NCBI GenBank assembly: GCA_016931255.1 | Contig: JAFGFG010000009.1 | Span: forward strand, 259,076-323,075 | Source: Candidatus Aenigmatarchaeota archaeon | Lineage (GTDB): Archaea; Aenigmatarchaeota; Aenigmatarchaeia; QMZP01; JAFGSV01 | DNA: 64,000 nt | Direction: 5' to 3' | Shown: positions 18,556-39,823 of the stretch, piece after piece | Layout of the letters: each line of letters begins with the position of its first letter | Numbering within the stretch: position 1 is the first letter of the stretch | The notes under the pieces: model-generated | Seen by the model: only the letters and a program-made list of their open reading frames with translations | Told to the model about the DNA's origin: nothing | Database searches by the model: none | Position numbers and translations under genes: made by a program

Positions 18556-18703
18556 GCGGGGGTACCCGAGCGGTCTAAGGGGCTAGGTTCAGGGCCTAGT
18601 GGCTTAGTGCCTTCGCAGGTTCGAATGCACCTTTTGCACATGTAAACGTGCAAAACGCGCCCGAAAATAAGCTGGCGCAGTGCCGAATATCCTGCCCTCC
18701 GCA
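18556..18703 (+). tRNA. tRNA-Leu(CAG) with 64-nt T-loop intron (18626..18689)
   Basis: Acceptor GCGGGGG/CCTCCGC with discriminator A; anticodon arm CTAGG-TTCAGGG-CCTAG; long variable arm; T-arm GCAGG-TTCGAA|T-CCTGC; BHB GCAGG-TTCG-AAT-GCAC / GTGC-CGAA-TAT-CCTGC. Confidence 0.93.
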
Positions 18704-18793
18704 TTGAACCTTTTTAGAAAAAATGTTCACGAAAAAACGAACGATTTCATCGTTTTCCGGGAGCGCTTTTCCCTGTCTCGGACAGAAAGGGGT

Positions 18794-19894
18794 TCACTCG
18801 TAGCGTATGGCTTCTATTGGATGGAGCTTTGCCGCCTGCCTTGCGGGTACATATCCTGACACAGCGCCTATGAAAACTGCAAATAATATTCCCTGCGCTA
18901 TCAGCCTTGGTGTTATCAGCGCCATCGGCTGTAAGAGTATGGAATTGATGAACTCTACAGCGCAATAGCTTATCAGTATTCCTGCTATGGCACCGGATAC
19001 GCTTATGGTTATCGACTCAAAGAGCACGGACATCAGTATATACCTGCTGGTGGCCCCGAGCGCTTTCATTGTACCTATCTGGCGTTTTCTCTCCCTCACG
19101 GAGATTATCATTACGTTCATTATCACAATACCGGACACGAGGGCTGCTATGCTTCCGAGGGCGAATGTCATCATGTTGAGCTGGTCGAGCGTTTCATTCG
19201 CAGTGTTCGCAAGGCTTTTGTCTGTCGCTGCTGAAAGTTCATCGAACTCGTCGTTTATGGCCTGCTCGATTATATCCGCGTCCGCAGCTGATGACGGCTT
19301 TATCATCATTATCGAGATTATGTCTTCTTTGCCTTCCAGTTCCTGAAGGACTTCGATGTCCATGTGTATGCCGTTGTCTATATCGCTGTCCCCGGACTCC
19401 TCAAGTATGCCGACAATCTCGAATTCCCTTTTATTGAATTCTATGGTGTCTCCCGGTGTATAGTCGTTGTTTTCAGCATAGTCGTGGCCTATCACTATCT
19501 CATCCGCACCTGGATTCAGTTCCCTTCCCTGGTCAATATCTATGTTCACTGCAAAGATTTCTTCCCCGTTTGGATTGATGCCTGTTATGCTTTCACCGCT
19601 TATGGTCGCGAAAAGCAGAGGACTGACTAATTCAACTCCTGCCAGGCCTTCGATGTCATCCACGAGCGCATAGTCTATCTCGCTTCTCATGAAAGCGTAC
19701 TGGGCTATGTCGGCTTCTCTTACTGTTACAAGCCCTGAGGTTATCGACAGCTGGTCGTTGACGTAATATGTTATGCCCTCGGAGAAGGATGAAATGCTTG
19801 TCACCAGCATAATTCCTATCATGACACCGAGTGCAGTAAGGAGTGTCCTGACCTTGTGCCTTTCCAATTCCCTGAAAATCATCTCCCACATCAT
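18794..19894 (-). CDS. MacB/FtsX-like ABC transporter permease
   Basis: N-terminal RELERHKVRTLLTALGVMIGIMLV, FtsX-like C-terminus GYVPARQAAKLHPIEAIRYE. Confidence 0.9.
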   Translation of the reverse strand: MMWEMIFRELERHKVRTLLTALGVMIGIMLVTSISSFSEGITYYVNDQLSITSGLVTVREADIAQYAFMRSEIDYALVDDIEGLAGVELVSPLLFATISGESITGINPNGEEIFAVNIDIDQGRELNPGADEIVIGHDYAENNDYTPGDTIEFNKREFEIVGILEESGDSDIDNGIHMDIEVLQELEGKEDIISIMMIKPSSAADADIIEQAINDEFDELSAATDKSLANTANETLDQLNMMTFALGSIAALVSGIVIMNVMIISVRERKRQIGTMKALGATSRYILMSVLFESITISVSGAIAGILISYCAVEFINSILLQPMALITPRLIAQGILFAVFIGAVSGYVPARQAAKLHPIEAIRYE

Positions 19895-25026: not shown

Positions 25027-25094
25027 GGAACCCTTTTGAAAAAAGCGTTCACGGAAAACTCACGGAAAACTCATGAAATTGATGGTGATATAAT

Positions 25095-39627: not shown

Positions 39628-39669
39628 TATACTAAAAATCGATATCAATCAACGCTGTTAAAATCTGAG

Positions 39670-39823
39670 TGCCCCCGCCGGGATTCGAACCCGAGTCATC
39701 GGCTGTCTTCTTCGGACATCCAGTTCATTTCCTATTTCATTGCCGGGAAAAGCCTTTCCCGACTCAAACCTTCCGAACCGAATCGAAAGGCCGGTATCCT
39801 TGGCCGGACTAGACGACAGGGGC
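39670..39823 (-). tRNA. tRNA-Glu(UUC) with 79-nt intron (39705..39783) at canonical 37/38 position
   Basis: Acceptor GCCCCTG/CGGGGGC + A; T-arm TCGGG-TTCGAAT-CCCGG; BHB CCGGC-CTTT-CGA-TTCGG / CCGAA-GAAG-ACA-GCCGA; spliced loop CTTTCGA. Confidence 0.93.

Follow-up and report, generated by a model that had tools for sequence, protein, structure and literature searches.

The window analysed here, a stretch of 64,000 nucleotides, carries what we take, with a probability of roughly 0.86, to be the tRNA-Leu(CAG) gene of its host genome, whose transcript would be spliced at a BHB motif by an epsilon2-type endonuclease and the ligase RtcB, and whose intron holds a copy of a dispersed, probably mobile element. 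The features of this locus and the further copies of the element in the window are listed in Table 1.

Table 1. The tRNA-Leu(CAG) locus and copies of the element in the 64,000-nucleotide window (positions counted from its first letter).
Feature	Position	Strand	Evidence
tRNA-Leu(CAG) gene with intron	18556-18703	+	read from sequence
tRNA-Leu(CAG) 5' exon, positions 1-59	18556..18625	+	97% identity to intronless G001 gene
BHB 5' half: GCAGG (outer), TTCG (central), AAT (bulge, cut AA|T), GCAC (inner)	18615..18630	+	MFE fold
Intron, 64 nt, position 59/60	18626..18689	+	absent in G001, present in G003
Element copy inside the intron	18627..18680	+	model R3, 53.8 bits, E 2e-13
Hairpin stems of the intron copy	18632-18639/18648-18655 and 18657-18661/18674-18678	+	
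BHB 3' half: GTGC (inner), CGAA (central), TAT (bulge, cut TA|T), CCTGC (outer)	18680..18695	+	MFE fold
tRNA-Leu(CAG) 3' exon: T60, T-stem 3' strand, acceptor 3' strand, A73	18690..18703	+	
Short, degenerate copy of the element immediately downstream of the tRNA gene	18706..18735	+	R1 E 3.7e-4
Element copy at the 3' end of a convergent ABC-transporter permease-like ORF (18794-19894)	18753..18795	-	R1 E 4.7e-10
Short element copy directly behind a ribosomal-protein-cluster ORF	25028..25058	+	R1 E 3.9e-11

A script that enumerated possible BHB motifs, spliced them and scored the products returned as its top solution the same 64-nt intron that the initial annotation had proposed, and all sequence parts named there were found in place. 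The intron lies at position 59/60, i.e. other than 37/38, and splicing by the script leads to an 84-nt class II tRNA-Leu(CAG) with the T-loop TTCGAAT and complete stems (acceptor 7/7, anticodon stem 5/5 and T-stem 5/5 pairs). This canonical product matches a natural empty site: the same gene of G001, a genome of the same genus, contains no intron, and its T-arm and acceptor (GCAGGTTCGAATCCTGCCCTCCGCA) are identical to those of the spliced window gene, whereas in its anticodon stem a C-G pair is replaced by A-T, a compensatory change. The assignment as tRNA-Leu(CAG) and the restored 84-mer are confirmed, and the intronless counterpart gives them their strongest independent support. The gene was not reported by ARAGORN, run with and without the option for anticodon-loop introns, nor by Rfam at the gathering threshold (partial match of 27.6 bits vs. 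a cut-off of 29), as had been anticipated for standard scans. An intact tRNA-Leu(CAG) elsewhere, which would have spoken against the gene, was absent among the BLAST matches in its own assembly, leaving some room for a second copy because this assembly is 93% complete.

Folding the whole precursor without constraints gave an MFE structure (-62.3 kcal/mol, z -2.53) that contained the BHB exactly as claimed before, together with both internal hairpins of the intron. The outer and central helices (GCAGG+TTCG paired with CGAA+CCTGC), the 3-nt bulges AAU and UAU and the inner helix GCAC/GUGC span the exon-intron junctions, with the 4-bp central helix and two 3-nt bulges of a strict hBHBh' motif. 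When the 64 intron bases were shuffled, a strict BHB with a 4-bp inner helix arose at the junction in only 140 of 400,000 trials. The further expectation that such a position requires an endonuclease of relaxed placement does not follow, since a strict BHB alone needs no relaxed enzyme; relaxed specificity has been tied to relaxed motifs, and T-loop introns with BHB motifs are established and listed as known (PMC6379350). Noncanonical BHB tRNA introns of archaea are the subject of Marck and Grosjean (2003), as cited in PMC6379350, and of the tRNAscan-SE 2.0 survey (PMC8450103). Because T-loop introns are already known, the single gene is a member of the class of archaeal noncanonical BHB tRNA introns, with which it shares the cis intron, the strict BHB, a normal tRNA after removal and a listed T-loop position; it differs from them in its host, which matches Aenigmatarchaeota, and in the dispersed conserved structured core of its intron.

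The host genome comprises 929 kb on 9 contigs and is 93% complete. Its closest named matches for ribosomal protein S13 are from Candidatus Aenigmatarchaeota (66-73% identity), and the Thermoproteales frame of the initial annotation gives way to these DPANN relatives and an ARMAN-2-like enzyme of the epsilon2 type. We counted at least 44 tRNA genes, more than half of them interrupted, in a census that is rough because some multi-intron genes are incompletely resolved. T-loop introns occur in at least nine genes, including the one in the window, namely those for Leu(CAG), Leu(AAG), Leu(TAA), Leu(TAG), Gly(GCC), Ser(GCT), Tyr(GTA), Ile(TAT), where the intron was read by hand, and a Ser-like gene at locus L070; D-arm introns were found in the genes for Ala(GGC), Thr(GGT) and Gln(CTG). 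The tRNA-Leu(CAG) had been presented as one odd gene; the reading of the gene stands, but such introns are common here. The window also contains, on the minus strand at 39669-39823, a gene for tRNA-Glu(TTC) with a 79-nt intron at 37/38 defined by a BHB, for which ARAGORN reported a 58-nt intron that leaves the gene distorted. The tRNA-Leu with the anticodon AAG (G000:C2:163938, where G000 is the host genome; locus L031, loop CTAAGGA) recurs at loci L130, L132, L133, L135 and L137, in several genomes of the order. Such A34 tRNAs are considered rare in archaea.

Following the suggestion to look at the architecture of the splicing endonuclease, we found a protein of 398 amino acids that is of the epsilon2 type and a full-length ortholog of the ARMAN-2 enzyme (PDB 4FZ2 and 9W2K; E 5e-92 against 4FZ2). 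Residues 3-398 of 398 align with ARMAN-2 from end to end as a single three-unit chain. Checking the residues named from the RNA-bound structure (PMC12397907), we found Y236, H251, K282, R275, K228, W384 and Y160/K161 of the ARMAN-specific loop (ASL) to be kept, i.e. both the Tyr/His/Lys triad and the ASL Tyr-Lys pair are present. A gene for the ligase RtcB was also detected (E 1.5e-155). From these components, we propose that the precursor folds into the strict BHB across the T-arm, that the endonuclease would make its two cuts at AA|U, behind position 59, and at UA|U, ahead of position 60, and that RtcB would join the exons to the 84-nt tRNA and probably circularise the 64-nt intron. Differing from the ARMAN-2 system, the epsilon2 enzyme in this order often coexists with an alpha-type paralog in which the catalytic lysine is replaced by alanine. 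This paralog (G000:C1:13645-14208; L073:446-1009) has M. jannaschii 1A79 as its best PDB match and 17 homologs (L148-L164), mostly in genomes that also contain the epsilon2 enzyme; the catalytic Tyr and His are kept, and Ala replaces the catalytic Lys in the genome and in all 17 relatives examined. A role as a structural or regulatory subunit is possible.

The same gene was traced in 40 relatives by BLAST with exon 1, followed by splicing of the matched loci. Within the genus, the site that is empty in G001 is occupied in G003 by an ortholog of the window intron, 63 nt long and matching it at 59 of 64 aligned columns, in a gene that also has a second intron in the D-arm, and G002 contains a longer intron with tandem copies of its core. 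Introns of unrelated sequence were present at 59/60 of Leu(CAG) in G004 and G005 of the same family and in G021 and G028 of another family. With unrelated introns filling the site across genera and families, position 59/60 of tRNA-Leu seems to have hosted introns for a long time in this order, while their sequences have turned over.

The element was recognised from a motif noticed in several introns, AAAAGCGNNNNCGGAAA, which gave 23 matches in the genome vs. one for a reversed control pattern. Sixty copies yielded the consensus NNRC-C-CTTTT[variable stem-loop]AAAAG-C-GYNN-RCGGAAAA. Its upper stem covaries (column pair 10-28: UA 10, AU 4, GC 2; column pair 13-25: AU 8, GC 7, CG 1) more strongly than in all 500 shuffles and every slid register. 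An outer stem, whose pairing was no part of the search pattern, was found unprompted by RNAalifold, with 16 of 16 sequences paired at two column pairs and five double changes at each. It is formed by the three bases preceding the element and three variable bases, so the variable side of the hairpin nearly always matches the adjacent three bases. The outer stem is fully paired in 53 of the 60 copies, compared to a mean of 15.9 and a maximum of 28 after shuffling, a control that somewhat overstates the significance because the copies are related; the 20 different base combinations observed are independent of that control. The covarying outer stem is also present in copies outside introns. Three bases, namely the C before TTTT, the G that follows AAAA and one of the Gs in CGG, occur jointly in 52 of the 60 copies and are jointly missing in 7, with one odd copy. 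This joint pattern suggested a purine-motif triple helix, which we no longer favour as the primary interpretation, since pairing in the outer stem accounts for the C-G pair; the second G is left without explanation by this pairing. The element had no Rfam match apart from a chance hit to mir-239 (E 2.9), and no match at or above the Rfam gathering score was obtained for described RNA families, including group I and group II introns.

The window intron is a member of this dispersed structured family: a covariance model (R3) whose input excluded both this intron and its ortholog in G003 had its best match in the window at the intron copy. Model R1 gave only 6.2 bits for it because this copy belongs to a subtype with two instead of three Cs, which also lacks the matching Gs. 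Besides the intron copy, the window contains three others (Table 1).

Across the genome, copies in tRNA introns occur at 59/60, at 37/38 and in the D-arm, and others lie directly 3' of tRNA genes or behind protein genes; homologous intron sequence thus recurs in different genes and at different positions. In the close relative G002, copies are also found in introns inside the 16S gene (three) and the 23S gene. R1 detected 21 copies in the host genome, 60 in G002, 21 in G003 and none in G001, which also lacks the Leu(CAG) intron, a spread of 0 to 60 copies among members of a single genus. Matches were obtained in 29 of 41 genomes (the host and the 40 relatives) at E 0.1. Across the phylum, 74 of 156 genomes gave matches at E 0.001, the 82 genomes without a match serving as a partial control. 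Partial tRNA 5' ends of about 15 nt, each followed by an element copy, lie directly upstream of intact tRNA genes at L107 (G002:C3), where they are arranged in tandem, L110 (G003:C1) and L053 (G000:C2). Tandem element cores with a spacing of 40 nt were seen inside a tRNA gene of G002 (L098, G002:C4:10454-10590), and the 121-nt T-loop intron of tRNA-Ile(TAT) (L036, G000:C6:19369-19482) contains two copies in opposite orientation.

This distribution suggests that the 59/60 site of the genus holds a copy of a probably mobile element which also sits in other tRNA introns, in the rRNA introns of the close relative and behind genes. Essential RNA genes would tolerate this element because it is taken out by way of the BHB and the splicing enzymes. 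The element may either have made the intron or have entered an existing one. Several candidates for its spread were tried and rejected. LAGLIDADG homing endonucleases do not fit, as LAGLIDADG_3 matches are out of step with element counts (17 vs. 0 in G001, 0 vs. 21 in G003 and 0 vs. 21 in G011). An IS200/IS605-type element is not supported either, with no Y1 (HUH) transposase in G000-G003 and Y1_Tnp counts that do not follow copy number. Viral carriage found no support in IMG/VR, where a search with one strict form of the element gave no exact match. Because neither LAGLIDADG_3 nor Y1_Tnp tracks the copy number, we infer mobility from the distribution and call it probable. More tentatively, we suggest that a minimal mobile element of about 30-60 nt spreads in Aenigmatarchaeota by insertion into tRNA, 16S, 23S and intergenic sites and is spliced out by the epsilon2 enzyme and RtcB, a proposal we put at somewhat below even odds.

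The introns might instead be ordinary, vertically inherited tRNA introns that spread by tRNA gene conversion and occasional local duplication, without any mobile element. We consider this unlikely, but it has several observations on its side: 59/60 introns are old in the order, gene conversion would give the nearly identical 70-nt introns found in Leu(TAA) and Leu(TAG), a tRNA gene immediately precedes many of the intergenic copies, and the partial tRNA 5' ends stand with element copies in tandem before tRNA genes at L107. However, conversion between tRNA genes cannot place copies behind protein genes or inside the G002 16S and 23S genes, and the range from 0 to 60 copies in one genus and the covariation of the outer stem outside introns also speak against it.

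Alternatively, the hairpin could be a functional RNA signal, such as one for 3'-end formation or for termination/processing, whose presence in introns would be accidental. The conserved tail RCGGAAAA, the covarying hairpin and the several non-intron copies found in sense direction after tRNA 3' ends or stop codons would agree with such a role, which we nevertheless regard as rather improbable: a terminator within tRNA-Leu, tRNA-Ser or 16S would block essential genes, and one copy (L035/L067) is reversed inside a tRNA intron. With no more than roughly a dozen genes per genome having the element, and none found in G001 by R1, it does not behave as a general signal. That the tRNA-Leu(CAG) is a dead pseudogene, with CTG read by another tRNA such as Leu(TAG) through wobble or an unassembled intact copy, is highly improbable, for although the assembly is only about 93% complete and includes a gene for Leu(TAG), neither the stems nor the BHB show any damage, the anticodon-stem difference to G001 is compensatory, Leu(TAG) itself requires splicing of a T-loop intron, and relatives retain an intact Leu(CAG), with introns, at the same gene.

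A spliced tRNA-Leu(CAG) with a probably mobile element in its intron has partial parallels in other archaea. In Thermoproteales, similar introns in different tRNAs and positions have been read as large-scale transposition of unknown mechanism (Fujishima et al. 2010, as cited in PMC4090602 and PMC4033280); going by these citing papers, our case shares the similar intron sequences in different tRNAs and positions but differs by occurring in another archaeal group, by a shared sequence that is also found outside introns and in 16S and 23S genes, and by the covarying hairpin with its conserved tail. Atabeyarchaeia and Freyarchaeia likewise have most tRNA genes interrupted, with many noncanonical positions and multiple introns; they are Asgard archaea, and the passages of PMC11291895 considered here mention no dispersed element in common. 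One integration model comes from Caldiarchaeum (PMC3293823). Our literature search retrieved no paper on this element or on tRNA introns of Aenigmatarchaeota, which is no proof of absence.

The origin and movement of archaeal tRNA introns are an open question, and reviews call the mechanism of transposition unknown. An element for which the literature search found no described counterpart, short and structured, present inside and outside introns and with occupied and empty sites in one genus, makes intron gain directly testable. The findings also widen the known range of epsilon2 splicing enzymes and of tRNA sets rich in introns to include an order of uncultured DPANN archaea, in which simple tRNA scans will report missing tRNAs.
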